A stretch of 64,000 bases of DNA, taken from Lachnospiraceae bacterium (lineage in GTDB: Bacteria > Bacillota > Clostridia > Lachnospirales > Lachnospiraceae). The stretch is taken from positions 1-64,000 of the forward strand of contig JAFUIR010000004.1 of NCBI GenBank assembly GCA_017468395.1, given 5' to 3'. Under the pieces are notes generated by a model, which saw only the letters and a program-made list of their open reading frames with translations, made no database searches and had not been told where the DNA came from. Made by a program: the position numbers and the translations under genes. Positions 1 to 19,571 of the stretch are shown piece after piece (the stretch's first letter is position 1; each line of letters begins with the position of its first letter).

Positions 1-419
1 CCATCCTGCTGCCTTCTCATATATAAATCAGCCCATAAATCTTTAAATTTTATATAGCTGCCAGTTGTCATCGAGCTAAACACACTAATTCCTTCATAAA
101 CCAGCTCATATTCCTCTGATAATACAGGTTTAGGCTCTTCCATAGGTAATGGTTGCTCTGCCACCTCAGATTGCTCCGTTACCTCAGGTTGCTCCGTTAC
201 CTCAGGTTGCTCCGTTACCTCGGATTCCATGGTTGGTTTCGATATTTCTGTAGGCATTTGCTCTGCAGTTGACACCTCCTGGGTTTCAGGCAAAATCCCC
301 TCCGTCTCATCTTTTTCATTTTTCCAACTCAAAAGTATTATACTTATACAGACCAATACCAAGCCGGCAACTGTCACCAATACTTTCTTATTTTTTCGTA
401 AAAAATCCAAAAGAGCCAT
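1..419 (-). CDS. Membrane-anchored protein with TEQPE-type repeats (partial)
   Basis: The 3' end lies beyond position 1, so only about 139 N-terminal residues are visible. They show a short basic start (MALLDFLRKNKK), one hydrophobic segment at about residues 12-30, then a Glu/Pro/Thr-rich linker made of four near-identical six-residue units (VTEQPE type, DNA 155-226), then the start of a folded region around SEEYELVYEGISVF. This is the layout of a protein anchored by its N-terminus with an extracytoplasmic domain on a flexible stalk. The start is the ATG at 419, after an AGGAAAAAAGGA ribosome binding site. It is the last gene of the minus-strand cluster that encodes an ABC transporter and a cysteine-rich peptide, but a 188-bp gap with its own possible promoter separates it. 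I do not recognise the family. Confidence 0.75.
   Translation of the reverse strand, partial: MALLDFLRKNKKVLVTVAGLVLVCISIILLSWKNEKDETEGILPETQEVSTAEQMPTEISKPTMESEVTEQPEVTEQPEVTEQSEVAEQPLPMEEPKPVLSEEYELVYEGISVFSSMTTGSYIKFKDLWADLYMRRQQD
155..226. repeat. Four tandem 18-bp coding repeats
   Basis: Units start at 155, 173, 191 and 209. The two central copies are identical (GCTCCGTTACCTCAGGTT) and the outer ones differ by a few bases. They encode in-frame Val-Thr-Glu-Gln-Pro-Glu units in the stalk of the partial membrane protein. The perfect 18-bp period suggests copy number could change without breaking the reading frame. Confidence 0.9.
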
Positions 420-565
420 TTCCTTTTTTCCTCTCTAATATACTAAGCAGTTAAGACCAGAACGGACTCTTGGTTCTCTCATTTGAACCACCGTTTACCT
501 GTAAGCCATACACTCTTTGAAAATTCTTGATCGCACGCTTATTTTGCTAATATTCTAGTCCTTTA

Positions 566-594
566 CTAATACTTTCTCTTTTTAACTTGTCCAA
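566..594 (-). promoter_or_regulatory. Possible sigma-A promoter for the repeat protein gene
   Basis: Read on the minus strand there is TTGGAC, a 17-base spacer, then TATTAG, followed by about 147 bases of leader before the ATG at 419. It lies in the gap after the ABC ATPase gene. The match is moderate (four of six bases in each box), so independent transcription is only a suggestion. Confidence 0.35.
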
Positions 595-607
595 TACTAT
601 CGGCATC

Positions 608-1276
608 TTATGCTTCCGCCAGTTTACCATCTTTTATATAAACTACTCTTGTTGCATATTTAACCAATTCCATATCATGAGTAACCATAACAATCGTAGT
701 TCCCTTTTTATTCAAATCTGATAATAATTCCATAATACTACGGCTATTTTCTTCGTCCAGATTTCCTGTGGGCTCATCGGCAAGAATCACTTTAGGATGA
801 TTTACAATTGCTCTTGCTATTGCAACTCTCTGTTGCTGTCCTCCCGAAAGTTGACTGGGATAATAATTCATCCTGTCATCAAGACCTACCTTTTCCAATG
901 CTTCTCTTGCACATTTTTTTCTTTCTTTCTTTTTCATTCCTCCATACCCCAGAGGTACTTCCACATTATGCAGGGCATCCAATTCATCTATAAGATGATA
1001 TGCTTGAAAGATGAAACCGATATTTTTATTACGAAACGCTGCAAGCTGCTTGCTGCTTTGTCCACTAACTTCTACCTTGTCAAAGAGGTAGTTTCCTTCC
1101 GTCATAGAATCAATTCCACCCAGTATATTCAGCAAAGTAGTTTTACCACATCCTGAACGCCCTAAAAGCATTACGAATTCCCCTTCGTCAATTGACAACG
1201 AGATATTTTTAATCGCTGTAGTTTTTACGTCTTTCGATTCGTATACCTTCTTTAAATTTTTTACTTCTATCATCAT
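608..1276 (-). CDS. ABC transporter ATP-binding protein (LolD/MacB type)
   Basis: This is a complete 222-aa nucleotide-binding subunit. It has Walker A (GRSGCGKT, about residues 39-46), a Q-loop region (FIFQAYHL), the ABC signature LSGGQQQR, and Walker B followed by the D-loop (LADEPTGNLD), then a switch histidine (VTHD). The ADEPTGNLD form and size are typical of the MacB/LolD/SalX subfamily, which energises FtsX-type permeases that push lipoproteins or peptides outward rather than import nutrients. I chose the second in-frame ATG (1276) because AGAGG lies five bases upstream; the open frame begins earlier and would overlap the permease gene. It directly follows the two permease genes, so the three form one transporter. 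Confidence 0.93.
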   Translation of the reverse strand: MMIEVKNLKKVYESKDVKTTAIKNISLSIDEGEFVMLLGRSGCGKTTLLNILGGIDSMTEGNYLFDKVEVSGQSSKQLAAFRNKNIGFIFQAYHLIDELDALHNVEVPLGYGGMKKKERKKCAREALEKVGLDDRMNYYPSQLSGGQQQRVAIARAIVNHPKVILADEPTGNLDEENSRSIMELLSDLNKKGTTIVMVTHDMELVKYATRVVYIKDGKLAEA

Positions 1277-1292
1277 TACATCCTCTTTCGCA

Positions 1293-2474
1293 CTACACCC
1301 GTGCATTATTAGTTCTAATATAAAATAGCGAAGTCATACTGGTAGCAACCGCAATAATAAAACACAATACCCCTACCATCCCCACTGCTTCATGGGACAT
1401 AGTAACCGCATACTGTGAACTACTTAATGCCGGAGCAATAAGCAGCGAAAAAGCAAGTGAAATTCCGCCTGCGGTAAAACATAGTAAAAGCATTTCCAAA
1501 AGAAGTTCGACCACTAACTTCCACCGTTCTGCCCCTACCCAAAAACTTATTGCAAAATCTTTTTTTCTTCTTTCTAACAATATGAACAGAACTCCTACCA
1601 TACCTACAACAATGAGAAACAAAGCAAACTTTGCAATCCACGATAGCACCCTTATGGTATCGCTTAAATCACTACTACTTTTTTGATAATCTTCAATTTT
1701 ATTTGAAATCTCATAACTGCATTCATCGTGCGTTTCGGATAAATAGACTAAAACTTCGTTTCCTTTTTCCTGTAATTCCTTTAAACTGATACCTTCTTTC
1801 CCAATCAATTCCAATGTACAATTGAAGAGAACATCAAATTCTTCAAATATATCCTGCATAGAAACCGGAATGATGATACACTCTCTAACCGTCTTGTCAT
1901 AGCCGACAGTTGGTGCGAAAGAAAGAATTTGCTCACTATTTTTCGCTTTGTCAAATTCCTTAAATAAATATTCTGTCTCATTCACATAGATTCCTTCTGA
2001 CGAAATCACAACGCCCAAGTCCCCTAGGATAACATTCTCCTTTTCCAAATGTGCTTTTGCCTCTGCTCCTATGTATGGACTATTCCCTTTTACTTGAAAC
2101 ATTTTTTGAAATGCTACTTCTGACATACCAAGCACTGTAATTGTATCTAAATCTCTCGTATATATTGCCCCATAGGAAATATATGAAATTTCTAACATCT
2201 GCCCATATTTTTCGGCTATGTAATCATAATCTGCTTTTGTCACAGGCACCCCGTTATTTCGTCCACCAAGCATATCTTTTGTATAAGCATTAATTGAAAT
2301 TCCGCTTTCCGTGTACTGTTTCTCATATTCATACAATCTTCGCTCTATTGACTTTGCAACATTAATCTGGCTTGCTATGATTGTAAATCCTACGACCAAT
2401 TCTAATACTATAAACCCATATATTTTTGCATTCCACTTAAGTCTGCGCATTGCACGGCTAACCAAATAAAACAT
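1293..2474 (-). CDS. FtsX-like ABC permease, second subunit
   Basis: This 393-aa membrane protein has one hydrophobic segment near the N-terminus (about residues 17-37), a large extracytoplasmic domain of some 230 residues, and three hydrophobic segments in the last 130 residues. That is the standard topology of MacB/FtsX permeases. The start ATG at 2474 has GGAG seven bases upstream. It follows the first permease gene after a 2-base gap and precedes the ATPase gene. Two non-identical permeases plus one ATPase suggest a heterodimeric exporter or membrane mechanotransmitter. The extracytoplasmic domain shows no motif I recognise, so the cargo cannot be read from it; the neighbouring secreted peptide is the natural suspect. 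Confidence 0.88.
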   Translation of the reverse strand: MFYLVSRAMRRLKWNAKIYGFIVLELVVGFTIIASQINVAKSIERRLYEYEKQYTESGISINAYTKDMLGGRNNGVPVTKADYDYIAEKYGQMLEISYISYGAIYTRDLDTITVLGMSEVAFQKMFQVKGNSPYIGAEAKAHLEKENVILGDLGVVISSEGIYVNETEYLFKEFDKAKNSEQILSFAPTVGYDKTVRECIIIPVSMQDIFEEFDVLFNCTLELIGKEGISLKELQEKGNEVLVYLSETHDECSYEISNKIEDYQKSSSDLSDTIRVLSWIAKFALFLIVVGMVGVLFILLERRKKDFAISFWVGAERWKLVVELLLEMLLLCFTAGGISLAFSLLIAPALSSSQYAVTMSHEAVGMVGVLCFIIAVATSMTSLFYIRTNNARV

Positions 2475-2476
2475 AC

Positions 2477-3595
2477 TTATTCTCCCTTCAGCACAGATGC
2501 TATATCGAATTTCATTATCTTATGTGTCATGCTAAAACTTATAATAAAGCACAGCAGTTCCAAAATCAGAAAACCGAGCACATATACTTTTGCGTCGAAC
2601 AGCAAAATTACGCCCTCGGGAATCGTCTGCGTAAACATTGGTAACACCAATATGTCTATAAGATAGGCAAGTAAAGATAATAAACCGTTCTCAAAAAAGC
2701 AAGAAAAGAAAATTTCCTTTTTCTCTGCCCCCAAAGCCATTTTTATCCCTGTTTCATATCGCATCCGGGCAATTTTTCCATATAGCACCAGAATGCAATT
2801 TATTATGGAAAATATCATTAAAGGAATCGTAATTGCAAAAATAAAAACAGAATTTGAAAAGCAAATCTCTCTCTTTCTCTCAAAATAATCATTTATATCC
2901 TGAATCCTATAAATCTGCCCTGTTTTTTCCTCTAATTTTTTCTCAATCTGATTTTCCCCCACATTTTTTTCAGTTTGAACAAAAAAAGTATAATTATTTT
3001 TGTTCAGATTACCATTGTCGTCAAATACACCATTCGGGACCAGAACCTTATTAATAAGTTCCATAGAGCGAAATACGCCCACAATTTGAAGAGGCTTCCC
3101 CTCCACAAAAAGCACATCTCCCACTCCAACCTGCAAATTGTACTGAGATAACAACGATTCTTCTATCATACAAACCGTTTTAACTTCTTTTATTTCCTCT
3201 TTTTTGATGCTCCGCCCCTCAATTATATCGTACTTCACAAAATCAAGAAATTCTTCTGATATTGCTCCGACTGCATCATTTACTATCGTATCAGTTATTT
3301 CAACGTCATACGCTAACTTTTCACAGCCTCCCAATTTTATTGCATCCAGATTTTCTTTTATTTCCAAATACATCTCATTCGTCAAATGTTCTGTTTCTAC
3401 ATTACAAAAGTACGCATTTTCACTAATCTGTGGAAATAGATTTTTCACATTGACCCAGAAAACGTTAATATTGGCAAGTGCTATAATAGGCATCATTAAC
3501 CCAAGTGCCAAAGAAAACATCACTATGAGGTTTATCTTTATATTTTTCTTTAGTTCCCGAACACTTAGTTCAAAAAGGAAAAAAAGTTTATTCAT
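2477..3595 (-). CDS. FtsX-like ABC permease, first subunit
   Basis: This is a 372-aa permease with the same plan as its downstream neighbour: an N-terminal transmembrane segment (about residues 18-45), an extracytoplasmic domain to about residue 245, then three hydrophobic segments. The cytoplasmic loop after the second segment (MRYETGIKMALGAEKKEI) is the conserved FtsX-family coupling region that contacts the ATPase. The start codon overlaps the stop of the beta-propeller lipoprotein gene in a TAATG arrangement, implying translational coupling. That coupling is the strongest sign that the lipoprotein and the transporter act together. Confidence 0.88.
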   Translation of the reverse strand: MNKLFFLFELSVRELKKNIKINLIVMFSLALGLMMPIIALANINVFWVNVKNLFPQISENAYFCNVETEHLTNEMYLEIKENLDAIKLGGCEKLAYDVEITDTIVNDAVGAISEEFLDFVKYDIIEGRSIKKEEIKEVKTVCMIEESLLSQYNLQVGVGDVLFVEGKPLQIVGVFRSMELINKVLVPNGVFDDNGNLNKNNYTFFVQTEKNVGENQIEKKLEEKTGQIYRIQDINDYFERKREICFSNSVFIFAITIPLMIFSIINCILVLYGKIARMRYETGIKMALGAEKKEIFFSCFFENGLLSLLAYLIDILVLPMFTQTIPEGVILLFDAKVYVLGFLILELLCFIISFSMTHKIMKFDIASVLKGE

Positions 3596-4599
3596 TACTC
3601 TACCTTCTTTATCTCAAGTACTTTTTCCATTAAAGGCAATCCAACGTATATCGTACCGGTTTCGTCCATCGTTAAATTTGAATACATGCTAATATCTTCA
3701 CTATTGACATAGGAATGCTTGTATATACCGCTAAAGTCATAGTAATCCACAGTTCCATAGGAGCCAGATGCGCACACAATCCCATCTGCATCCACTACGA
3801 ATCCTGACGGAGTAATCCCATATGGAAGTTCACAGACCTTTGTCATTTCCTCTGTTGTTAAAGAATACAAAACATTCAATCCGGTCCTCCAACCGCTAAC
3901 ATCATTCCTTTTTCCTGTGGTCACTCCCAAGTTAACAGCATAGACCTTTCCATCTGTTTCTGAAACCGCTCCGCAAAAATTTTGCCCGAGTTCTACAAAC
4001 GTTTCTTCCTGCACGTTGTAACACAAAATTTTACCATACGCAAAATTGGAAGATGATAAATAAACATTCCCCGCTTCATCAACGGCAATGTAATTAGCAG
4101 ACTCTGCTTCTTTGGGCACATTCTCAGAAAAACAAATTTCTTTTTTATATGTCAAATCAAAGTTAAGTATTTGGATTCTTCGATTTTCCGCGTCCAATAC
4201 ATAAATACAACCATTTTGCGCCGCAATTCCGGTCGGATTCAAAAATTCAAGAGAACCATTCCCTGTCTCTCCCACCGTAGATAAAATATTACCTTCTCTA
4301 TCCAAAACGAGTATGCAATCATTTGCCGTATCGACCATAAGTATATCCGTTTCACGACATAAAATGCCTCCTATGTTTCTTCCACTGCACGCTTCCAGCT
4401 CTGACATCGAATACTCCTGTAACATATTCGTCTGTCTCTGTTTAAATTCTGTTTCATATAATGTGTCCAGTTCTTCATCCGTAAACACGCTTAATTCTCC
4501 ACGTGCAATCTTATCTGCATCCATTTTGTTTTCCTGTCCGCAACCAACAGAAAATAACATACAAAAAACAATTGCAAAAACAAAAATTTTCTTTTGCAT
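3595..4599 (-). CDS. Six-bladed beta-propeller (NHL-like) lipoprotein
   Basis: This 334-aa protein starts with a lipoprotein signal (FAIVFCMLFSVGC, lipobox SVGC), so it should be anchored outside the membrane by a lipidated cysteine. The rest is a series of roughly 45-residue repeats with propeller-like strands such as ILVLDREGNILSTVG, IYVLDAENRRIQILN and VYLSSSNFAYG, typical of NHL or 6-bladed beta-propeller folds that bind peptides or proteins. The start ATG has GGAG seven bases upstream. It lies between the secreted peptide gene and the permeases, and is coupled to the first permease. I infer that it captures or presents a ligand, possibly the peptide, for the transporter; the sequence does not prove this. 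Confidence 0.82.
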   Translation of the reverse strand: MQKKIFVFAIVFCMLFSVGCGQENKMDADKIARGELSVFTDEELDTLYETEFKQRQTNMLQEYSMSELEACSGRNIGGILCRETDILMVDTANDCILVLDREGNILSTVGETGNGSLEFLNPTGIAAQNGCIYVLDAENRRIQILNFDLTYKKEICFSENVPKEAESANYIAVDEAGNVYLSSSNFAYGKILCYNVQEETFVELGQNFCGAVSETDGKVYAVNLGVTTGKRNDVSGWRTGLNVLYSLTTEEMTKVCELPYGITPSGFVVDADGIVCASGSYGTVDYYDFSGIYKHSYVNSEDISMYSNLTMDETGTIYVGLPLMEKVLEIKKVE

Positions 4600-4642
4600 T
4601 TCTTTTCTCCATCACTTTATACTTAATATTTCCTAATACTGT

Positions 4643-4686
4643 AAAAGCGAAGGGATTAATACTATTAGGTATTCATCCCTCGCTTC
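4643..4686 (-). terminator. Hairpin with short T-run between peptide and lipoprotein genes
   Basis: On the minus strand AGCGAGGGAT pairs with ATCCCTTCGCT (one bulge), with further pairing of GAATAC and GTATT toward the loop, followed by TTTT. It lies 29 bases after the peptide gene and 43 bases before the lipoprotein gene. The T-run is short, so a partial terminator is likely. It would leave much more peptide mRNA than transporter mRNA, a common arrangement for secreted peptide precursors. Confidence 0.6.
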
Positions 4687-4714
4687 TAAATACATTACCT
4701 ATTATTTCTTTTTA

Positions 4715-4972
4715 CTATTGACAACAACCTAAGTCAATTGAGGTATGCTTATACTGTCGGATAGCGATATTCTCATTAGTAACACAAAGGCGATAAAGTG
4801 TTATTGGTGCTTTATTTGTTTCATTCATCCACAAAAAACCACAACCATCACTCTCACACTGGGCATCTCCTATCCATTCTGTATCCCAATCACCACATCC
4901 TTCTGCTGACACAGGAATACTTGTTGCAAATAACATTACTGTTGCAAAACAAAGAACAAAAATTTTTTTCAT
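4715..4972 (-). CDS. Secreted cysteine-rich 85-aa peptide
   Basis: The protein has a clear Sec signal (MKKIFVLCF, hydrophobic core, cleavage probably after PVSA). The predicted mature form is about 61 residues with six cysteines: GCGD, AQC, DGCG, RLC and a terminal GCC. An even number of cysteines in so short a secreted chain points to disulfide cross-linking. The ATG at 4972 has a GGAAGGG site. It lies 24 bases downstream of a tandem-thioredoxin membrane protein that could handle its disulfides, and upstream of a beta-propeller lipoprotein and an ABC transporter. No radical SAM, LanB/LanC/LanM or peptidase-C39 gene is near, so a lanthipeptide or sactipeptide is not supported. I do not recognise a named family. 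Bacteroidota NVEALA-type peptides are also encoded beside 6-bladed beta-propeller proteins, which is an analogy only. Confidence 0.8.
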   Translation of the reverse strand: MKKIFVLCFATVMLFATSIPVSAEGCGDWDTEWIGDAQCESDGCGFLWMNETNKAPITLYRLCVTNENIAIRQYKHTSIDLGCCQ

Positions 4973-4996
4973 TTTTTTACCCTTCCTTCATCGAAA

Positions 4997-5863
4997 TCAG
5001 TAGACACAATTCAATAATTTCTCTTCAATTTCCTGAGGGTCAGTTTCTCCGATAATTTCATACTTCCCAGAATTGTGAAGTATTAAAAAACTAGGATACC
5101 AATCAACTCCATATATATAGGCTAATAAATCTCCTGCATCCACTTGTGTCATCTTTTCTACCGGAACATTTTCCCTATCCCTGTAAAATGTCAACACTTG
5201 AAAAGCATCTTGAATACCGGTTCCTTCAATAATGGGATTTACCAATTCACAATCCGGGCAACCCACCATAGAAAAATAGACTAACAAAGGCCTTGTATCC
5301 TTCGTATCGGCCAACGTTTTTATGTAGTTTTCATTGATTGTTTCTACATCTGATATTTCCAGCAAAGAGATTTTCTTTATCATATCATCCAACATCTCTC
5401 CCTTAAAAATTATATCCATATTTTTATCTAAAATATAGAATGTCGGAGTGGAGGTGCCGATATGAGCATCTTTAATGGTATAATTATATTCAATGGGAAT
5501 TCCATTCTTCTGTGCATAATTTTCCCCCGTTTTTCCTTCCCATACTATCATGTTGGCAACATTCATTTCTTTGTACACGTTGCAAATATTGTTAATTGTA
5601 GTTAGCGAGTCAACACAGGTTCCACAACCCTTATCAAGATAATAAACAAACGTATAATCCTGATTCTTATCCTCCCAATCTACATTTTTTTGCTCCCAAT
5701 CCAGCAACGGAACGTCTAGAAACGAATCTCCATAATTTAATATAATTTCTGTTCCTTTATTATAATACACTTTCTGCAGACAAACAAGTAGGACGATTGT
5801 CGACATAAGGCAACCTAATATAAAGGTAAAAATCATATAACATACCATTCTTCTCTTTGACAT
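4997..5863 (-). CDS. Membrane protein with two thioredoxin-like domains
   Basis: This is a 288-aa protein with an N-terminal transmembrane segment (about residues 7-30). Two thioredoxin-like domains follow. The first has a CGTC motif (LDKGCGTCVDSL) and a TlpA-like STPTFYILD strand. The second has CPDC (FSMVGCPDCELVNP) and a WYPSFLIL strand with the usual cis-proline. The second half resembles the thioredoxin-like accessory proteins found in bacteriocin clusters. Both CXXC pairs are intact, so it could be an extracytoplasmic disulfide oxidase, isomerase or reductase. It is the first gene of the cluster and sits directly before a six-cysteine secreted peptide, its likely substrate. Start ATG 5863 follows GAGGGAGA. 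Confidence 0.85.
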   Translation of the reverse strand: MSKRRMVCYMIFTFILGCLMSTIVLLVCLQKVYYNKGTEIILNYGDSFLDVPLLDWEQKNVDWEDKNQDYTFVYYLDKGCGTCVDSLTTINNICNVYKEMNVANMIVWEGKTGENYAQKNGIPIEYNYTIKDAHIGTSTPTFYILDKNMDIIFKGEMLDDMIKKISLLEISDVETINENYIKTLADTKDTRPLLVYFSMVGCPDCELVNPIIEGTGIQDAFQVLTFYRDRENVPVEKMTQVDAGDLLAYIYGVDWYPSFLILHNSGKYEIIGETDPQEIEEKLLNCVY

Positions 5864-5990
5864 AAAATATCTCCCTCTGCTTATTGTAAAAAAGAACTAT
5901 AAATAAATTCTGTCCACCTTTACTTTTGTATTTTGAATTATCGTGCGCACAATATTCGCTTATATCATGACACATTTCCATTTCAACAAT

Positions 5991-6045
5991 CAAGGGACAG
6001 AGTTGTCCAAAAAATTTTTGCATTTTTCGACAACTCTGTCCCTTG
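5991..6045. repeat. 17-bp perfect inverted repeat with 21-base loop
   Basis: Left arm 5991-6007 (CAAGGGACAGAGTTGTC) and right arm 6029-6045 are exact complements. The loop is AT-rich. The right arm overlaps by three bases the -35 box of the predicted promoter of the small peptide gene. No T-run follows on the plus strand, so a simple terminator is unlikely. It could be an operator or a dispersed palindromic (REP/MITE-like) element. Confidence 0.9.
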
Positions 6046-6072
6046 CCATGTTACTTCCTTCAATTTTATAAT
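6043..6072 (+). promoter_or_regulatory. Predicted sigma-A promoter of the 58-aa peptide gene
   Basis: TTGCCA (6043-6048), an 18-base spacer, then TATAAT (6067-6072). The predicted start of transcription is about 30 bases before a strong AGGAGGGG ribosome binding site. The -35 box is joined to the right arm of the perfect inverted repeat, which is where a repressor or activator would bind. Confidence 0.5.
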
Positions 6073-6112
6073 ACTCATGTTACCAAAGAACTTTTATAGG
6101 AGGGGAGTCCAA

Positions 6113-6289
6113 ATGAAAAAGAATAATTTTATCAAAAAACTTTACCGTACCATCTGTATCTGTCTCATCGGATTATGTATTTATGGAAGCACGCCGTTTC
6201 CCCGATTTCCCAACCCGGAAAATAATGTTCCCCATATTATCTCAACATGCAGTGATAAAGAAGACTTCATAAAGGGATTTAAAGAGTAA
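6113..6289 (+). CDS. Small 58-aa membrane or secreted peptide
   Basis: The peptide has a basic N-terminus (MKKNNFIKKLYR), a hydrophobic stretch (TICICLIGLCIYG, about residues 13-25) and a polar, proline-rich tail (STPFPRFPNPEN) ending KEDFIKGFKE. The ribosome binding site AGGAGGGG lies nine bases before the ATG, much stronger than chance would give. The gene has its own promoter and converges on the double-HTH regulator gene, overlapping its 3' end by 11 bases. Short exported peptides encoded beside XRE-type regulators with helical repeats are the pattern of RRNPP quorum-sensing pairs, so a signalling propeptide is a reasonable guess. No processing site can be recognised, and a small membrane protein of other function is possible. 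Confidence 0.62.
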   Translation: MKKNNFIKKLYRTICICLIGLCIYGSTPFPRFPNPENNVPHIISTCSDKEDFIKGFKE

Positions 6290-8171
6290 TCATTGTGCTC
6301 TTTCGCTGTTCCAATTTTCTTTTATAACTTCGTTCCATAAACTTTCGTCTTCCAAAACGACTATAAATAACACAAAGGTTTATATCCCTGAACACATTCC
6401 TCTTTTCCTCAACCGGAATGTGTTCTTTTTCTTTTTGCTCATAATTCCATGTAAGGTCATATAGGGAACCGGGAATAAAGGTTATCCGGTTCCACTTTAG
6501 GCACTCTGAGAGAATGGTTTTACTTATGTCGCTGGCAGTATCATACTCTCCCTTATTTCCCAACTGGCTTGCCACACCGGACATAACCAACTCGTAGGAA
6601 TTAATATACGCCCCTATAAAACCTTCCTCTCTCAATCCGGTATAACACCTTCGTAAGGTGGTCAAACATTTCTGTAATTCCGGATTATCCCAATTCATGT
6701 TGCTTACCATGTTATGAATACAACCAACTTCCTCTTCTGTCATATATCCGCTTTTTTCCGAGACTGCCGCCTCATAGGGCATGGTATACTCCAACACCTC
6801 CCGTATTTTCTCCAGAAATTCTTCTTTAGATATCTGCTCTGTCTGCTTTTGATTCAGCACTTCAATTCGCATTAAAGTTTGCCGGTTCATGGGAATCTCT
6901 AAGGACACCATTTCCCTTAGTTTTTTCAGCGTTTTTTCAACTTTTTCATTTTCTCTTTCGTTGATACTGCACCGTAAGTCATCCATTAATCGTTGTGCTT
7001 CCATGCTGCTGCTTACCAGTTCGGTCCGTTGAAACTCCATGGGCAGATTAAGCCTTTGAAAAAGTTCTCTGACAATAGGGCGCTGGGTTCTCAATTTATT
7101 GTTTTCAATCCGTCCTATGGTTTTCAGTGAGCAGATTCCCTCGCACAACTGCTGTCTGGACAGCCCTAACATTTCTCGGCGGATGCGTATCACATCCCCG
7201 ATGCAATAGGCCTCTTTTTCCACGTACAGATAGCACTCATCCTGCATTTCAAAGGGCCTGCCTAATTCTTTTCGTACCTCTTCCACAGCCCATATCCATT
7301 CTTCGTTTTCTTTCTTTACAAGTTCAAGAGCGCTTGATTTTTGTGCTTCTCCCTCTGCGTTCAAAGTTTTTTCCATTTTTTGCAGAAGTCCTTTACGCAC
7401 TTGCAACAGTTCCCACAGATAATAAGAGCCATGCGCATCCCGCAGCATTTCAATGGCCTGGTTGGAAAGTCCCAGCATTTGTACTTCTGTTTCTTTCAAA
7501 CTTTCTTCTTTCTTTTCCAACTCCCTGTATAAGAAATATACCGTTTGAGGATAGATTTTCGCCCTGCATACATCATCCAACGGTGAATTTTTAATATATG
7601 TAAGCACTTTTTCAAACCAACATACTTTTTCTTCTGTGGGCTTACTATAATTTACATACTCCAATATCAAATACAGTTCCTGCATGGATAGGCTCTTTTT
7701 TTCAAAATTCTCTTCCGTTATGTCCGAAACCGTTAGGGAAACTGCCCTGTGGTAAAGTTCTGCCAGTTCTTCCCGGGATGCCCCGTCTCTTTTTAAAATC
7801 ATTCCCTTCATAGCAAGTACAAACTGTTTCTCCACCGGATTTGTCATGTCGTATGTATTCTCATACCGGCTTATGAGATTTTCCGATTTTTCCCTATCCA
7901 AATCCACGATTGCCTGTAAAATCTGCTGTCTCAGTTTCCATGGAAAAAACTCATCATAGCACAGATAGTTTTCGTAAGAATCTGCTGTTTCTCCCATTCT
8001 TGAAAGCAACCTGTCTCTGGTAAGTTTATCCGGAAATCGGTCTCCCTTTTCGAACTTTCCAAGAATACTTAATTCAACCAAGCCCTCACTTAACCTTTCC
8101 ATGCTCAGCCCGTACTTTTTTCGCATTTCTGTTATGTAATTTCCAAAATCCTCTCTTGTGTACCTATTCAT
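6279..8171 (-). CDS. Regulator with two XRE-type HTH domains and helical repeats
   Basis: This is a 630-aa cytoplasmic protein. An XRE-like helix-turn-helix lies at residues 8-58 (MRKKYGLSMERLSEGLVE). A second lies at about 323-378 (IRREMLGLSRQQLCEGICS). Each is followed by a long alpha-helical region, so the protein looks like two HTH-plus-helical-repeat units in tandem. The helical parts resemble the TPR-type sensor regions of RRNPP regulators (Rgg, PlcR), but no specific family is clear. I chose the ATG at 8171 because AGGGGAAG lies just upstream; the earlier in-frame ATG has none. It follows recO and faces a small peptide gene whose promoter carries a long inverted repeat, a natural candidate operator. 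Function is inferred. Confidence 0.75.
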   Translation of the reverse strand: MNRYTREDFGNYITEMRKKYGLSMERLSEGLVELSILGKFEKGDRFPDKLTRDRLLSRMGETADSYENYLCYDEFFPWKLRQQILQAIVDLDREKSENLISRYENTYDMTNPVEKQFVLAMKGMILKRDGASREELAELYHRAVSLTVSDITEENFEKKSLSMQELYLILEYVNYSKPTEEKVCWFEKVLTYIKNSPLDDVCRAKIYPQTVYFLYRELEKKEESLKETEVQMLGLSNQAIEMLRDAHGSYYLWELLQVRKGLLQKMEKTLNAEGEAQKSSALELVKKENEEWIWAVEEVRKELGRPFEMQDECYLYVEKEAYCIGDVIRIRREMLGLSRQQLCEGICSLKTIGRIENNKLRTQRPIVRELFQRLNLPMEFQRTELVSSSMEAQRLMDDLRCSINERENEKVEKTLKKLREMVSLEIPMNRQTLMRIEVLNQKQTEQISKEEFLEKIREVLEYTMPYEAAVSEKSGYMTEEEVGCIHNMVSNMNWDNPELQKCLTTLRRCYTGLREEGFIGAYINSYELVMSGVASQLGNKGEYDTASDISKTILSECLKWNRITFIPGSLYDLTWNYEQKEKEHIPVEEKRNVFRDINLCVIYSRFGRRKFMERSYKRKLEQRKSTMITL

Positions 8172-8225
8172 TTTTCTTCCCCTCATTTTGCGCTACTGTT
8201 TAGCCTTTCACACAATAAAACCACA

Positions 8226-8876
8226 CTACATTAGCGTCTCCAAAATCTCCAGACTCTTAAACTCCTTATTAAAAAATCTTTTCCGACACCGCTCTCCGAT
8301 TTCCTGTAATTCCAAAAGCACCTTGTCCGTCACGGAAAAAGTGTACAGTTTCTCCACCAAAGATGCAGCAATAAAGTCCACTGCATAGACTGTGGATTCC
8401 TCCCATGTCTTGTCACCGGGCACGCCGGGAAATTCCCCATTGACCGCCACGACCTTGATTTCAAAAACAGCACGGACCAAGGGATTGGGGATAGAAGGAT
8501 GCACCAGTGCCCGCAGGGTCTGGTACAAGAGTTTTAGCATTTCTTTTTCGTCATTGTTTTCCCTTGTGTAATAGTCCGCAATTTCCAAAAAATACATGCC
8601 GTAGTATGCACCTATGTAATCACTGCGGAGTTGCTCAAAATAGTTAGAAATATTTACTTCCATTACATTATAAGAACTTTTCCCCTCGTACAACTTAAAT
8701 TCGCCGAAACAAAAAGGATTGGTAGCCGCCATAAACCGGCTGCCGGAGCGTCTCGCTCCCTTGGCAAAAGCCGATATTTTTCCTCTTTCTTTCGTTAATA
8801 TGCACACACGCCTATCGTATTCACCGATAGGCGTCTGACTTAAAATCATTCCTGTTACCGTAATCGCTTCCTGCAT
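8226..8876 (-). CDS. recO: DNA repair protein RecO
   Basis: The 216-aa protein matches RecO, which loads RecA on SSB-coated DNA together with RecR. The N-terminal OB fold is recognisable (TGMILSQTPIGEYDRRVCIL, then KERGKISAFAKGARR). The middle is the helical RecO domain (YFEQLRSDYIGAYYGMYFLE). It is a little shorter than the usual 240-250 residues and lacks the four-cysteine zinc motif found in some RecO proteins. The ATG at 8876 follows AAAGGAGAGA by seven bases. The start lies 56 bases inside the yqzL gene in another frame. The order era, yqzL, recO is conserved in Firmicutes and supports the call. Confidence 0.93.
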   Translation of the reverse strand: MQEAITVTGMILSQTPIGEYDRRVCILTKERGKISAFAKGARRSGSRFMAATNPFCFGEFKLYEGKSSYNVMEVNISNYFEQLRSDYIGAYYGMYFLEIADYYTRENNDEKEMLKLLYQTLRALVHPSIPNPLVRAVFEIKVVAVNGEFPGVPGDKTWEESTVYAVDFIAASLVEKLYTFSVTDKVLLELQEIGERCRKRFFNKEFKSLEILETLM

Positions 8877-9006
8877 ACGGTCTCTCTCCTTTTTGCTCTC
8901 CCTTGGCTGCGCTTTTACTCTCTTCCTGCTTCATACGGCTATAGTTTAAATAGTCCTCTATTTTGCCGGAAACGGTAAATTGCTGCCAGTAACTTTCTGT
9001 GCTCAT
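8821..9006 (-). CDS. yqzL: YqzL family small protein
   Basis: This is a 61-aa protein whose N-terminal half (YWQQFTVSGKIEDYLNYS) fits the short YqzL family: an aromatic residue, a phenylalanine, then G-x-I-x-x-Y-L. B. subtilis carries the same small gene between era and recO, exactly as here. The C-terminal half is charged and poorly ordered, and its DNA overlaps the first 56 bases of recO in another frame. That overlap probably explains why it is longer than the B. subtilis protein. The start is ATG 9006 after AGGGGG. No molecular function is known to me. Confidence 0.72.
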   Translation of the reverse strand: MSTESYWQQFTVSGKIEDYLNYSRMKQEESKSAAKGEQKGERPYAGSDYGNRNDFKSDAYR

Positions 9007-9081
9007 CCTGCATCCCCCTTTGTGCTTTTTTTAGTTTTCTTTCGCACTTTTAGGGTCTGCTTTTTGCCCCTTTTCTATACC

Positions 9082-9993
9082 TTAATTTAAGATATCTTTT
9101 TCATTGTAACCGAAGTTTTTCAGAAGTAAGTCGCTGTCTCTCCAGTCTTTTTTTACCTTAACCCAAAGTTGAAGATTGGCCTGCATTTCAAGTAAATCCT
9201 CAATCTCAGGACGTGCCTTAGAGCCTATCATTTTCAGCATACTGCCACCTTTTCCGATGATAATGCCCTTGTGGGAATCTCTCTCGCAAACAATGGTCGC
9301 CTCAATATCTACAATGTGCTGACGGTACTTCATGCTCTCTATGGTAACCGCTATCCCATGGGGAATTTCCTCCGCCAAAAGACGCAGTGCCTTTTCACGG
9401 ATCAGTTCTGCCACAATCTGGCGCATGGGCTGGTCGGTAATGGTGTCCTCATCATAAAATGCCGGTCCGTAAGGAAGATATTTCATAATGCATTTAATCA
9501 GTTCTTTGGTATTGTTTGCTTTCATAGCCGACACAGGCACGATTTCCGCAAAATCATATTCTTTGCGGTAGGTTTCAATACTCGCCAAAACATCCTCTGT
9601 CTTTACAGTATCAATCTTGTTTATAACCAAAATAACCGGCGTCTTGGTCTTATGAAGTTGTTCGATAATGTGTCTCTCTCCCGCTCCGATAAAGGTGGTA
9701 GGCTCCACCAGCCACAAAATCACGTCCACTTCAGAAAGAGTTCTCTGGGCAACAGATACCATGTAATTACCCAGTTTGTTTTTTGCTTTGTGGATACCCG
9801 GTGTGTCCAAAAACACAATCTGTCCTTCCTCGGAAGTATAGACCGTCTGGATTTTGTTACGGGTCGTCTGGGGTTTATTGGATGTGATGGCAATCTTTTG
9901 CCCGATTAGACAGTTCATCAAGGTAGATTTGCCCACATTGGGTCTGCCAATCAATGTGGCAAACCCTGCTTTGTAAGATGTATTTTCGCTCAT
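9082..9993 (-). CDS. era: GTPase Era
   Basis: This is a 303-aa essential GTPase that binds the 3' end of 16S rRNA and assists 30S assembly. Visible motifs are G1 (GRPNVGKST), G3 (DTPGIHK), G4 (NKID) and a C-terminal KH domain with HKGIIIGKGGSMLKMIG. The annotated start is the ATG at 9993, whose A is the last base of the M16 peptidase stop codon (TAATG), giving MSENTSYKAGFATLIGRPNVG. The open frame runs further upstream but that stretch lies inside the peptidase gene. Translation is probably coupled to the upstream gene; a weak GTGGAG precedes it. Confidence 0.97.
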   Translation of the reverse strand: MSENTSYKAGFATLIGRPNVGKSTLMNCLIGQKIAITSNKPQTTRNKIQTVYTSEEGQIVFLDTPGIHKAKNKLGNYMVSVAQRTLSEVDVILWLVEPTTFIGAGERHIIEQLHKTKTPVILVINKIDTVKTEDVLASIETYRKEYDFAEIVPVSAMKANNTKELIKCIMKYLPYGPAFYDEDTITDQPMRQIVAELIREKALRLLAEEIPHGIAVTIESMKYRQHIVDIEATIVCERDSHKGIIIGKGGSMLKMIGSKARPEIEDLLEMQANLQLWVKVKKDWRDSDLLLKNFGYNEKDILN

Positions 9994-12923
9994 TAGAATA
10001 AGTTCTCCACTTTTCCAAAAATTTCTTTTGCAGCCTCGATGGCTTCTCCTCCGCCTACTACGCAAAGGACTTCATCGGACATAAAGGCACGGATATATTC
10101 TGCTGTCTTTCTGAAGGCTTCCTGATCCGTTGCCAACAGTTCGTCCCTCTCTCTCTGGATGTTTTCAAAACTTTGCCCCGTCATGTAAGCCCCCAGGGAA
10201 TACATACCCTTGGCTGCGGGATTCATCGGGGTGTCCAAAGAACTGATAGCACCGATAATGAACTGTGTCATGGTTCTTTCGTCCGCCTCAAAGGAAGCAA
10301 TATAGTCTGCCGCCTTTTCATAAACGTCAATGGTTTTTTCCAAATTGGGGTCCCTGTAGGAAACAAAGCAGGCATCGCCGGAGCGGCTAAAACTGCACAT
10401 GCATCCGTAGGCGCCGCCCTTCACACGCACATTGTTCCACAAATAGTCAGTGCTGAGCATGGTATGAAGCACACGCAAAGAACCTGTGTATTCCAATCCT
10501 TTTTCCTTAAAGTTACCGCCGCGGCACACATACTGTACCTGTCCGGCAGTCTTAAAGCCTTCATTTTTCTTGGAACGCTCGGGACGGTATTTTTCTTCTG
10601 CCAAAAGTGCGGAAACATCATCGGTAAACAAGTCTTTTTTCAACTGCGTGATAAGCTCAGGCAAAGGCTCATAGCCCTTTTCATCTCCCACAAAGTCAAC
10701 CATCAGATTCTCCGGGCGAAGTAAAATATGTGCCAGTTTCTGCAATTTATCTCCCAGCTCTGTCAAAACTTCCTCGCCTCCGCAGGACAGTTTTTCAATG
10801 AGTCGGTAGAAACTCATGCCTGAAAGCACATCGTTTACCGCTGAGGTATTGGATATATAAGAAAGAGCACGTCCCACAGCCACGGAATGTCCTGAGGAAA
10901 TCATGTAGCCTTGAGTCCTTGATTTTCCCTCTGCCAAAACTTCCGCCATACGCTTGGTATCGTCATACTTAGTACTTAGCAGCATTTCCTTCATCAGCCG
11001 AACCGCTTTGGCAAGATTGGGATAAAGAACCTTTGTTTTTAACTCTAGGGTTACGGTGTAATCATTTCTGTCCTTTACATTTTCATACAAATTGCAGACA
11101 GGGCTGATTCCGCCGGTTTCTATGTTTATTTCATTAAACAAATCGCCGTATTTGTAATTTTCGGTATTCAGCATACCAAGCATGCCCTTTAATACTCCCA
11201 AGTAAGGGAACAGGTCTGCGGGCACTTTGTCCGCCTTAAAGATAAGACGTAAATATGCGATTTCGTTGGTAAACAGGTTGTGGAATACCACGGTGCTGCC
11301 GCTGATGGTGCGAATCTCGTTAACATACTGCGCCGCTTCTTTTTTCATATCTTCTCTGGACAGCAAGGGGATTTTTTCCAAGTCCTCTTTCTTATCCGGC
11401 GTCTCCTGCCACTCCTTCAAAGCCTTGGTATCCGCCACAATCTTCGCTATTTCTTCCTGACTGAGGGAAGCCTTGTATACTGCCAGACTTTGTTTCAGTT
11501 CCTGTTCTTTCATTGCTGCCAAACCTTTTTTCGGAACCAAAGTTACCAAAGAGGCATGGTTGTTTTCCAGCAAATACTTGCGGATAAGTTTTTCAAACTC
11601 GCCCTTTTCCACCCATTCTTTCATGTGGGCAAAAGTCTCGTTTGCTTCAATGTGCATAAAAGGACAGTTATCGTCATAAAGCCAGCTGTCGAACATTTGC
11701 AGACCGTACATAAGTCCCTTGGGATAAGAACCAAAGTCCGCTTCACGATAACGGAATTCATAGTAGTTGATTCCGGCCAAAAGCGCCTTTTTGTCAATAC
11801 CTTCTGCCACCAGTTTTTCCAAAATTTCACGGATGGTATTTACAAATTCCTCTCTTCTGGAAACAGAAGTATTTTTTGCAACAATGGAAAAATAGGGCTG
11901 TCTCACACCGTTGTCATAAACGCTGTACACTTCTTCTCCAATGCCTTTATCAGTCAGTGCCTGCTTTAAAGGCGCACCTGGGGCGCTGCAAAGAGCATAA
12001 TCCAAAATCTGGAATGCCACATACATATCTTTATCCAGCACATCTCCCGCTGTCATGTTATAGGCAAAATAAGCACTCTTTTCTTCATCATCCTCGTCAT
12101 TGATGGGATAATCCTTTTCCACCTGACGCATTTTTTCAAAGGGGGGCTGCACTCCCACTTCGGAATCCACTTCCCTCATTTCAAAATTTGACAGATAGTT
12201 TTGGTCGATAAACTCCAGTTTTTCCGCCATATCCATATTTCCGTACAAATAAATATAACTGTTGGAAGGATGGTAATATTTTTTATGAAACTCTATAAAC
12301 TCTTCATATGAAAGTTCAGGAATACACTCCGGGTCGCCGCCGGACTCCATGCCGTAAGTTACATCGGGATAAAGGGAATTCATCAGTTCCCTTTGCAGCA
12401 CATCATCAGGAGAAGAAAATGCACCTTTCATCTCGTTATAAACAACGCCATTGATGGTAAGTTCACTGTTTTCATCTTCCATCTCATAGTGCCAGCCTTC
12501 CTGGCGGAAAATCTTGTCTTGTTTGTAAATATTGGGATAAAAAACCGCATCCAGATAAACGTGCATCAGGTTTTGGAAATCCACGTCATTACAACTTGCC
12601 ACCGGATAAATGGTTTTATCCGGGTATGTCATGGCATTTAAAAATGTATTCAAAGAACCCTTTACCAGTTCCACAAAGGGATCCTTAATGGGGAATTCCT
12701 TGGAACCGCAAAGCACGGAATGTTCCAAAATATGGGGCACACCGGTACTGTTTACAGGGGGGGTACGAAATCCGATATTAAACACTTTGTTTTCATCGTC
12801 ATTAGAAAGCAGTGCCACTCTCGCCCCTGTTTTTTTGTGTTTCAGCAAATAACTTTCTGAATTCAAGTCTTCCAGTCTTCTTTTTTCAATTATTTCGTAG
12901 GTTTGTAAATCTTCAATTCTCAT
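9993..12923 (-). CDS. M16 family zinc metallopeptidase (presequence protease type)
   Basis: This large 976-aa protein is of the PreP / M16C type. The inverted zinc motif HxxEH is at residues 64-68 (HILEH), and the third ligand lies in VVYNEMKGAFS. Further on are the second half-barrel and the C-terminal R/Y substrate-binding region (RVKGGAYGCMCSFSRSGDACFVSYRDPN), so both halves of the clamshell are present in one chain. The family degrades peptides up to about 65 residues inside a closed chamber. No signal peptide is visible, so it should be cytoplasmic. The start is ATG 12923 with GAGG five bases upstream. It is the gene before era, with coupled translation. Confidence 0.93.
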   Translation of the reverse strand: MRIEDLQTYEIIEKRRLEDLNSESYLLKHKKTGARVALLSNDDENKVFNIGFRTPPVNSTGVPHILEHSVLCGSKEFPIKDPFVELVKGSLNTFLNAMTYPDKTIYPVASCNDVDFQNLMHVYLDAVFYPNIYKQDKIFRQEGWHYEMEDENSELTINGVVYNEMKGAFSSPDDVLQRELMNSLYPDVTYGMESGGDPECIPELSYEEFIEFHKKYYHPSNSYIYLYGNMDMAEKLEFIDQNYLSNFEMREVDSEVGVQPPFEKMRQVEKDYPINDEDDEEKSAYFAYNMTAGDVLDKDMYVAFQILDYALCSAPGAPLKQALTDKGIGEEVYSVYDNGVRQPYFSIVAKNTSVSRREEFVNTIREILEKLVAEGIDKKALLAGINYYEFRYREADFGSYPKGLMYGLQMFDSWLYDDNCPFMHIEANETFAHMKEWVEKGEFEKLIRKYLLENNHASLVTLVPKKGLAAMKEQELKQSLAVYKASLSQEEIAKIVADTKALKEWQETPDKKEDLEKIPLLSREDMKKEAAQYVNEIRTISGSTVVFHNLFTNEIAYLRLIFKADKVPADLFPYLGVLKGMLGMLNTENYKYGDLFNEINIETGGISPVCNLYENVKDRNDYTVTLELKTKVLYPNLAKAVRLMKEMLLSTKYDDTKRMAEVLAEGKSRTQGYMISSGHSVAVGRALSYISNTSAVNDVLSGMSFYRLIEKLSCGGEEVLTELGDKLQKLAHILLRPENLMVDFVGDEKGYEPLPELITQLKKDLFTDDVSALLAEEKYRPERSKKNEGFKTAGQVQYVCRGGNFKEKGLEYTGSLRVLHTMLSTDYLWNNVRVKGGAYGCMCSFSRSGDACFVSYRDPNLEKTIDVYEKAADYIASFEADERTMTQFIIGAISSLDTPMNPAAKGMYSLGAYMTGQSFENIQRERDELLATDQEAFRKTAEYIRAFMSDEVLCVVGGGEAIEAAKEIFGKVENLF

Positions 12924-12942
12924 ATTTTCCTCATTTCCGTTT

Positions 12943-13368
12943 CTATAAATTAAATGCCATAAGTGCCAATTTCGATATGCCGATTTCCTGCACAATCACG
13001 CCCGTTTTCTCTTTCTGGGCAGCGGTAAGTTCCGCAAATTTTTCAATTTTCAGTGTCTTTGTCTCGTACACTTCTTTTTTCTTGCCAAAAAGGTTCTTTT
13101 TCACGACCACTTCTGCGTATTTTACTTTTATTTTTAACTGTTTACACACTTCAAAAACAAAACCGCCGGGCTCCAAAAAATAAAAATGGCTTTCCAGCGT
13201 GGTGGCCGGATCCAATTTGGCTTCTGCCAAAATGTACTTTTGCATGACTGCTTTTAACTTAAATGTAACATCTTCATTTTCGATTAATTCCTCATATGTA
13301 TACTTTGCGCCAAGATAGATGTTACCCGCATCCTGCATCACATACTTATAATCTTCGTAAATTGTCAT
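12943..13368 (-). CDS. Conserved-looking protein of unknown function, 141 aa
   Basis: I do not recognise this protein. It is 141 residues, soluble, rich in Lys, Glu and Val, with predicted alternating strands (FYFLEPGGFVFEVCKQLKIKVKYAEVVVKK) and a basic loop NLFGKKKEVYETKTLKI. It has no signal peptide or membrane segment. A GGAG site precedes the ATG at 13368 by seven bases. The stop of the sigma-like protein is 2 bases upstream and the M16 peptidase gene starts 19 bases downstream, so the three are certainly cotranscribed. The tight link to a degenerate sigma-factor protein may mean the two cooperate. Confidence 0.8.
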   Translation of the reverse strand: MTIYEDYKYVMQDAGNIYLGAKYTYEELIENEDVTFKLKAVMQKYILAEAKLDPATTLESHFYFLEPGGFVFEVCKQLKIKVKYAEVVVKKNLFGKKKEVYETKTLKIEKFAELTAAQKEKTGVIVQEIGISKLALMAFNL

Positions 13369-13370
13369 CT

Positions 13371-14111
13371 TTATTCTCCGCTCTCTAAGTCTTCAATCTT
13401 AAAGCCACTGATACGCATGGCTTCTTCAATGGCTTTTACGTTCATTCCGGTCTCCGCCGCCAGTTCCGCAGGCGTTACCTTTCTGCCCAAATCTTCTGCC
13501 AGACTTCTCGCCGCATCCGCCACTTTATTGACCTTATCTTCAATGCGCTTGTCCTTTTGGCTCTCCTTAGCATTTTCCTCAATAAATTCTTCCATGGCAT
13601 CCATCATCATCTTGCCAAGCATTCCTTGTGCCTCCGCCGCATTTTCAAGGCAGCCCAGCATGGTCACGCCTATGACCAGCGCCACATTCCCTTCCGCTAC
13701 CAAATCTTCAAGGGGCACGCCCTGTCCGCTGTAAAGTTTTGCAAGATCCACCGCCTGGGGCAAATAGATTTCTATCAACTTTTTCTGGGCGTCCGTATCA
13801 CCTGCCATGGCAGAAAGAGTAATTGCCTCTGCCTCGCCGGGGGTAACCCTCTCCATAGACTGCAATTCGTTAAAATACTCTTCCAGATAACTTTTGTCCA
13901 AATCGCTTAAATAGTCATCCGCATTCACAGGCTCACCGATGCCGATTTTATGTTTTTCCAAAAAGTCGTAAACCAAGGCAAGTTGCGCTTCATCCAGTCC
14001 AAGGGGCGCAAAAGCCTCCTTCACCTGTTCCTCACTGATGCAGCCACCCTGTTCTTTGGCTGTCTTTTTTACCTCTTCCAAGGTTTTTGCAAATAAAACT
14101 TCCTGATTCAT
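13371..14111 (-). CDS. Sigma-70-like protein lacking region 4
   Basis: The 246-aa protein has parts of a sigma factor. An N-terminal acidic helical domain resembles sigma region 1.1 (residues about 5-60). Residues about 105-160 resemble regions 1.2/2 (QKKLIEIYLPQAVDLAKLYS, then LEDLVAEGNVALVIGV). Residues about 210-240 resemble region 3 (KVTPAELAAETGMNVKAIEE). It ends there, so the region 4 HTH that reads the -35 box is missing. The basic and aromatic residues of region 2.3-2.4 that melt and read the -10 box also seem replaced by a Met/Ala/Glu-rich stretch. It may bind RNA polymerase without recognising promoters, or be a repurposed fold. ATG 14111 follows AAAGGGG. Confidence 0.72.
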   Translation of the reverse strand: MNQEVLFAKTLEEVKKTAKEQGGCISEEQVKEAFAPLGLDEAQLALVYDFLEKHKIGIGEPVNADDYLSDLDKSYLEEYFNELQSMERVTPGEAEAITLSAMAGDTDAQKKLIEIYLPQAVDLAKLYSGQGVPLEDLVAEGNVALVIGVTMLGCLENAAEAQGMLGKMMMDAMEEFIEENAKESQKDKRIEDKVNKVADAARSLAEDLGRKVTPAELAAETGMNVKAIEEAMRISGFKIEDLESGE

Positions 14112-14126
14112 CCGATTTCCCCTTTC

Positions 14127-15011: not shown

Positions 15012-15166
15012 AAAAACCCTCCGCATTTTTCAAATTATATCAGAATATATTCTATCATCACACCTAAAATAAGTAAACTGATGAAACCCCGATTTAAGAT
15101 AAAATTTACTTCTTTATGCTTTTTTAATTTACTGTTACTGTTCTGAATTTCGTCTAGGTTTGTTCG

Positions 15167-15195
15167 TTGCATTTTGTAAATTCCTGTCGTATAAT
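15167..15195 (+). promoter_or_regulatory. Sigma-A promoter of the activase gene
   Basis: TTGCAT (15167-15172), exactly 17 bases, then TATAAT (15190-15195). The leader before the ATG at 15276 is about 75 bases. The rest of the gap 15012-15275 is AT-rich and shows no hairpin of note. Confidence 0.65.
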
Positions 15196-15275
15196 GGTTA
15201 AGTATGTCAAAAAATGTATGAATAAGGAAGTAATTGGATTTATATCCTCTTTTTATGAAGGAAAGGAACTATTTT

Positions 15276-19499: not shown

Positions 19500-19500
19500 A

Positions 19501-19566
19501 AAAAACTATGTCACTATGGCTGTTGAAAATACTGTTTTCGACAGCCATTTTTGCACATAGTTTTTA
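19501..19566. terminator. Bidirectional terminator between convergent genes
   Basis: An outer stem ACTATGT/ACATAGT and an inner stem ATGGCTGT/ACAGCCAT, extended by GAAAA/TTTTC, enclose a small loop. T-runs flank it on both strands. It closes both the activase gene and the opposing helicase operon. Confidence 0.88.
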
Positions 19567-19571
19567 CATGA

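Follow-up and report, generated by a model that had tools for sequence, protein, structure and literature searches.

The window analysed here, 64,000 nucleotides (nt) of contig JAFUIR010000004.1 from a Lachnospiraceae bacterium, forms the beginning of contig C25 in a draft genome of 2.6 Mb. It opens with a cassette of genes, all on the minus strand, for a cysteine-rich secreted peptide (PEP), a tandem thioredoxin (TRX), a propeller lipoprotein (PROP), two permeases (FTSX1 and FTSX2), an ATPase (ATP) and a regulator (REG). C25, C29 and C9 denote contigs of this genome, and L- and G-numbers denote the loci and genomes compared with it. The features are as follows.

6279..8186, minus strand: REG, a regulator of 635 amino acids (aa) with two PlcR-like units in tandem, each a helix-turn-helix (HTH) plus tetratricopeptide repeats (TPR), from profile searches and a half-versus-half alignment
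6113..6289, plus strand: small exported open reading frame (ORF) of 58 aa, candidate pheromone precursor, convergent on the 3' end of REG with an 11-nt overlap
5991..6045: inverted repeat in the divergent promoter, candidate REG operator, with 23-nt arms that are 96% complementary and a 9-nt spacer
4997..5863, minus strand: TRX, membrane-anchored, with two thioredoxin domains (CGTC and CPDC), from Pfam Thioredoxin_2 and an alignment of six
4715..4972, minus strand: PEP, 85-aa precursor of a secreted six-cysteine peptide with the end LGCCQ, from a family alignment (n = 23)
3595..4599, minus strand: PROP, lipoprotein with an NHL or 6-bladed beta-propeller, from Pfam DUF5128 and NHL
2477..3595, minus strand: FTSX1, MacB-like permease, from Pfam MacB_PCD and FtsX and a MacB profile match
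1293..2474, minus strand: FTSX2, second FtsX permease, from Pfam FtsX
608..1306, minus strand: ATP, LolD/MacB-type ATPase, from Pfam ABC_tran
419 to <3, minus strand: truncated repeat membrane protein, cut by the contig edge

From TRX through PEP, PROP, FTSX1, FTSX2 and ATP to the protein at 3-419, the gaps are 24, 115, –1, 2, 19 and 188 nt, the fifth counted from the ATG at 1273, which, to judge from the homologues, is a more likely ATP start than 1306. The genes named in the initial annotation (thioredoxin, peptide, propeller, two permeases, ATPase and repeat protein) are all present in the order it gave and on the minus strand. Its six cysteines hold for the mature part of the peptide, but the full precursor has seven, one of them within the signal peptide. 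It had not noted three further features just upstream, namely REG, the convergent exported ORF and the inverted repeat.

We found that peptide, thioredoxin, propeller and FtsX transporter form, judged by their neighbourhoods, a single conserved unit. The same genome has a second, complete copy on C29, reached via the TRX protein, in the order regulator, convergent small ORF, TRX, 92-aa cysteine-rich peptide, propeller lipoprotein, two FtsX permeases and ATPase. The two copies are 26% identical in the regulator and 25-32% in PEP, TRX, PROP, FTSX1 and FTSX2. Single-sequence queries were too weak to reach further: the peptide found only itself and a chance match within a long frame in 299 family genomes, TRX found only its own genome among 299 genomes, and an initial scan of the named genomes gave no relative. 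A two-row TRX profile found matches in 3 genomes out of 397 from the family and in 2 out of 31 from the same genus (own genome counted in both); a six-row profile reached 9 out of 391 genomes at class level. In the named genomes the six-row profile marked 19 loci, 17 of them with PROP, FTSX1 and FTSX2; the ATPase accompanies 15 of these 17 and the peptide 16 (15 via the peptide profile, L024 by eye). L032 and L033 carry the thioredoxin alone. Independent lineages number fewer than 17, because several loci form close pairs (L019/L020, L021/L022, L023/L027 and L028/L029) and four (L020, L022, L027 and L029) are contigs used in building the profiles.

Named hosts of cassette-type loci include Faecalicatena contorta, Roseburia metagenome-assembled genomes, Neglectibacter and Faecalibacterium. 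Three genomes carry two diverged cassettes each: our own (window and C29) and, to judge from shared accession prefixes, those of L020 and L027 and of L028 and L034. In a thioredoxin tree the two copies of our genome stay apart with only moderate support (83/81, 87/81); their separate acquisition is possible, and we do not claim it. At L035 all other cassette genes are kept and the peptide gene is a remnant (13701-13858) left by an internal deletion, as comparison with L034 shows. The co-occurrence proposed by the initial annotation is thus borne out by the second copy and by the named loci: peptide homologues do stand beside the transporter genes, since the genes belong together in other genomes.

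The peptides have a clear cysteine pattern, C-x(11-14)-C-x4-C-x(16-19)-C-x(18-21)-C-C, which is complete in 20 of 24; among these, L017 ends C-x-C and L026 has one cysteine extra. The remaining four have reduced sets, C1 and C4 being absent from L019, L020 and L024, and C2 and C6 from L047. These paired losses (three events, with L019 and L020 counted as one) suggest bridges C1-C4 and C2-C6, with C3-C5 left over. As a control, we searched the 19 named loci for ORFs 70-115 aa long that have six cysteines, a CC end and a start resembling an export signal, and found 17 inside cassettes (113 kb) and none outside (238 kb). A peptide profile run on 250 family genomes recovered only the two copies of our genome; six weaker matches (E 0.001-0.01) were signal sequences or chance. 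Pfam and NCBIfam scans of 23 family peptides (E 0.1) gave no meaningful match, no antimicrobial family and no hit to the lactococcin 972 model for any of them. NVEALA was likewise absent from the Pfam matches of these 23, so the link to NVEALA peptides drawn earlier is not supported. An AlphaFold2 model of the window peptide (mean predicted local distance difference test score 78, and 90-96 in blocks covering most of the mature part) has four beta strands. Compared with the PDB, it gave no significant match and no clear fold match; laterosporulins appear among the weak rows of that search, and we do not claim them as a match.

TRX matches Pfam Thioredoxin_2, and its best NCBIfam match, ResA-like, lies below the cut-off. 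Both CXXC motifs are present in 21/21 TRX proteins found alongside a propeller, the second always C-x-D-C, and the first is missing in 4/5 orphan TRX examined. Together with the paired cysteine losses, this retention favours the disulfide-type peptide of the initial annotation. PedC-type bacteriocin accessory thioredoxins and Bdb oxidoreductases are dedicated thioredoxins that adjoin a disulfide peptide, whereas TRX is a single membrane-anchored chain that carries two such domains. PROP exceeds the cut-off of 22.9 bits for the 6-bladed model DUF5128 (PF17170; 32.3 bits over one stretch, 71-156), which upholds its identification as a beta-propeller; NHL is also matched, as are NHL propellers in the PDB. 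The cysteine at the lipobox position is invariant across nine PROP homologues. Matches to 7djm and 6g7w recall NHLRC2 and SOQ1, in which thioredoxin and NHL propeller work together; the two are fused in eukaryotes, whereas here they are separate cassette genes, and the functions are unrelated as far as known. Orphan thioredoxin relatives occur at five loci of one genus (L049-L053), of which the three that were read, L049, L050 and L053, lie beside genes resembling those for polysaccharide-degrading enzymes and another thioredoxin-like gene. The TRX-peptide-propeller trio of L047 is flanked by Cons_hypoth698 (YeiH-like) and TauE-type transporter genes (4978-6030 and 9026-9919).

The transporter has the features of the MacB or Type VII ABC class, with MacB_PCD, FtsX and ABC_tran all above Pfam cut-offs. 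A profile of six FTSX1 proteins matches MacB (5lil, E 3.7e-15) over most of its length, and ATP is 54-56% identical to four homologues and scores 221.5 bits against TIGR03608 (L_ocin_972_ABC), below the cut-off of 254.85. Locus L023 holds three different peptides and three FTSX2, with a single FTSX1, TRX, PROP and ATPase. FTSX2 paralogues differ most outside their C-terminal membrane part in L023, L027 and L018: those of L023 share 77-100% in the last quarter and 36-78% before it, and in L018 the values are 85-100% versus 32-65% for the more distant copy. Between L023 and L027, peptide types keep their FTSX2 neighbours (identities of 100% and 97% for the mature peptides and of 96% and 93% for the permeases).

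A profile of nine REG proteins matches PlcR (2qfc, E 7.9e-16, REG positions 316-566) and, over 7-61, PrgX; single-sequence scans found HTH_3 in 9/9, RNPP_C in 2/9 and TPR_6 in 1/9. The two halves align mutually end to end over 302 columns (E 3.2e-34, 14% identity, one pairwise comparison). REG thus looks like a tandem-duplicated, PlcR-like receptor of the RRNPP type, with predicted peptide binding. Since the REG proteins, at 604-682 aa (about 310 aa for each half), exceed the 250-500 aa of the RRNPP detection rule (PMC10075063), we term REG PlcR-like and RRNPP-type and do not assign it to a named subfamily. Our genome has exactly two REGs, each at a cassette. REG occurs in 11 of 150 family genomes, own included, the others having no cassette. 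In genome G042 we noted seven doubled PlcR-like regulator matches (L090, L100, L104 and L108-L111), some with a convergent exported small ORF, and found no cassette.

All four cassette REGs (window, C29, L034 and L035) have an ORF of 50-58 aa with an export-signal-like start that converges into the REG end; among nine cassette-less REGs examined, four have a convincing one. In part of this survey, six of 13 REG loci were read in the wrong frame and are left out. A Shine-Dalgarno sequence, AGGAGGGG, precedes the 58-aa ORF of the window, and 7/8 small ORFs have a ribosome-binding site. Between the small ORF and the divergent gene lies an inverted repeat, with arms of 23 nt in the window, 31-32 nt at C29, 20-21 nt at L034 and L035 and 22-23 nt at L112. 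Arms of 17-32 nt were found in 8 of 9 scored regions (largest of 100 shuffles each, 12-15); the ninth, L117, has no small ORF and reaches 9. Among 255 tiles of the window none reaches 17-nt arms, the tiling splitting the window's own repeat, and among 13 cassette upstream regions without REG the arms measure 20 nt at L017, 16 nt at L025 and at most 13 nt elsewhere. The arms of the window, L034, L035 and L112 have CAGA(G/A)TTGTC in common. The exact core pattern, CAGAGTTGTC...GACAACTCTG, occurs in 2 of 148 family genomes, our own and that of the L112 regulator, each time beside a REG. C29 has a different repeat, and its regulator is 21-26% identical to the window REG. At L017, a BlaI-like repressor and a BlaR1-type M56 peptidase (7550-9112) lie beside the cassette, and the 20-nt repeat stands before TRX (upstream of 9986).

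The block lies between recO and glyS. Among 23 readable loci of same-genus relatives, 22 have a lipoprotein-like gene or glyS immediately after recO, and the remaining one stops short of the next gene, whereas 10,661 bases separate recO from that lipoprotein gene in our genome. By this comparison the block is an insertion, which supports the acquisition that had been considered possible. The AT-richness noted at the outset also holds, the G+C of 608-5863 being 0.359 versus 0.405-0.459 in 51 equal-sized tiles after 8226. L113 (G042:C144, 3485-5347) has a different REG-type insert at the recO-glyS junction, with REG read as two frames and other secreted-protein genes. The junction is possibly an insertion hot spot. 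A plasmid search with TRX gave no match; phage or plasmid carriage was dropped as a claim, there being no evidence for it.

Several described systems resemble parts of the cassette. In scbABC (lactococcin 972-type) loci, a secreted peptide and a dedicated transporter/immunity gene pair follow an RRNPP-type regulator, ComR, and a palindromic site, and scbBC strains have lost the peptide and kept the rest, as at L035 (PMC11796350). However, the cassette peptide is not recognised as a member of the lactococcin 972 family, the ATPase stays under the TIGR03608 cut-off, a tandem thioredoxin and a propeller lipoprotein are added, and the regulator consists of two units. Enterotoxin STII (STb) passes through Sec, DsbA and then MacAB-TolC, the MacB pump ejecting its cargo without inner-membrane transport (PMC5985334). 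The cassette would share this sequence of Sec export, disulfide formation outside the membrane and a MacB-type pump, but in a Gram-positive without TolC, with a propeller lipoprotein in place of MacA and with dedicated genes in one operon; the analogy is one of mechanism, and we claim no kinship of the peptides. YknWXYZ, a protection system against the sporulation-delaying peptide SDP (PMC4887032), likewise ties a Gram-positive MacB-type transporter to the producer's own disulfide-containing peptide; the cassette differs in having no gene for a MacA/YknX-type adaptor and in encoding peptide and thioredoxin within the operon. PlcR-PapR and other RRNPP(A) systems share with it a PlcR-homologous HTH and TPR receptor, an adjacent small exported ORF and a palindromic site (PMC9765709, PMC10075063). 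REG differs from them in having two receptor units per chain and in coming from Lachnospiraceae; all but one of the genera reported in PMC9765709 lie within Bacilli.

Overall, we suggest, with a probability of roughly 0.55, that this is a horizontally acquired cassette that makes, folds and releases a secreted disulfide peptide and is switched by a peptide-pheromone receptor. The small ORF would give rise to a pheromone that re-enters the cell and binds to REG, and through the inverted repeat REG would then act on the TRX-PEP-PROP-FTSX1-FTSX2-ATP operon. The peptide would leave via Sec, TRX would set its three disulfides (probably C1-C4, C2-C6 and C3-C5), and the PROP lipoprotein would hold it outside the membrane. 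The MacB-type transporter, by analogy not moving cargo across the membrane, would detach or expel the peptide and so also protect the producer. The most likely purpose would be antagonism between related gut bacteria, and we infer an antibacterial activity of the peptide. We favour this pheromone-controlled, bacteriocin-like reading because the order and the parts fit the STII route, and its nearest logic is that of scbABC and SDP/YknWXYZ.

A number of observations weigh against it. Only 4 of 19 cassettes (17 named and the two of our genome) have a REG, and other regulators stand beside further ones (GHKL/LytTR at L021 and L022, BlaI/M56 at L017). Two partial class-level loci depart from the full set: at L047, TRX, peptide and propeller have no transporter in their neighbourhood, and at L046, TRX stands with three propellers and two permeases, and neither a peptide nor a cassette ATPase was found. 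Under a crude cleavage rule (which mis-cut L024 and gave doubtful cuts for L031 and L047) the mature peptides carry a negative net charge in 19 of 24 cases, zero in 2 and a positive one in 3, whereas classic antimicrobial peptides are cationic. TRX may oxidise the peptide, but it may instead reduce or isomerise it. Finally, L029 has two peptides and one FTSX2, and L030 one peptide and two FTSX1/FTSX2/ATP sets. These counts rule out a strict pairing of each peptide with one FTSX2. Since, moreover, the extracellular parts of such permeases may in any case evolve faster, we regard matched specificity as a lead and not a result.

More tentatively still, and with the odds rather against it, the cassettes could encode disulfide peptides of a new gut-bacterial class, each recognised specifically through the extracellular part of its matched FTSX2, with a double-thioredoxin and propeller folding station and with single-chain doubled PlcR-like receptors on unusually long palindromic operators. 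The combination of such a receptor with a long palindrome would be a quorum-sensing architecture of which we found no description in the papers examined. Open-access searches returned no paper on the gene set among the matches listed, and none for NVEALA, which does not prove that there is none. The cassettes provide a peptide family of Lachnospiraceae and Oscillospiraceae for which Pfam and NCBIfam have no model. The cassette offers a clear cysteine code and ready partner genes, and in our genome also a predicted receptor, signal gene and operator. Dedicated folding machinery for disulfide peptides of gut anaerobes and the role of MacB-type pumps in Gram-positives thereby become directly testable.

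Less likely, though a fair rival, is that the peptide serves not as a weapon but as a signal in its own right, or acts on the host or on surfaces, with transporter and propeller displaying or releasing it. Its mostly mildly acidic mature forms, the signal-transduction genes that adjoin several cassettes and the want of an antimicrobial family match would all suit such a role. However, some 60 residues with six cysteines are unlike short pheromones, REG loci already have a separate short exported ORF, and the extra peptides that accompany extra FTSX2 in L023 and L027 are a better fit to self-protection or matched export. Clearly less probable is a stress or detoxification module of the BceAB/Ykn kind directed against foreign compounds, in which peptide, thioredoxin and propeller would serve as sensing parts. 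The MacB/FtsX type of the permeases, the BlaI/M56 pair beside L017 and the protection that Ykn-type transporters give against SDP (PMC4887032) point that way, but the peptide is exported, variable and duplicated, is lost in L035 while the other genes stay, and at L047 occurs with thioredoxin and propeller but no nearby transporter.

The pheromone switch of the favoured reading could be an illusion if the repeat were an RNA hairpin, a terminator or the remnant of a mobile element, the small ORF chance and REG unrelated to pheromones, which we hold to be slightly more improbable again. Cassette-less REG loci are indeed mixed in their small ORFs (4/9), L115 has a 21-nt inverted repeat where no small ORF was seen, and L017 has its 20-nt repeat without REG. 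But the repeats sit in divergent promoter regions and not behind genes, their arms (17-32 nt in 8/9 regions) exceed the shuffle maxima of 12-15 nt and anything in the 255 window tiles (the window's own repeat being split there), their core is common to four REG loci and otherwise absent from 148 genomes, and 7/8 small ORFs have ribosome-binding sites. An extracellular thiol-redox or metal-handling system with the peptide as substrate or carrier would accord with the tandem thioredoxin, the cysteine-rich peptide with its CC end and the TauE and YeiH-like genes flanking L047, but it is hardly credible, leaving the variable peptides, the extra FTSX2 copies and the pheromone-type control unexplained.

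PADLOC returned general ATPase matches only, and Rfam gave nothing at the gathering score for window positions 1-20000. The membrane-anchored repeat protein of the initial annotation is present at 3-419 but truncated by the contig edge. It was ruled out as a core member, no counterpart following the ATPase of the second copy (other loci were not individually checked). The end of contig C9 equals the first 141 bases of the window exactly. On C9 the remaining frame of this protein is accompanied by genes for an RCC1-like and a second lipoprotein and by glyS. On this far side of the insert (window 3-419; L120, 3703-6079) we observed a repeated PEVTEQ-like stretch in the membrane protein, together with the RCC1-like lipoprotein.

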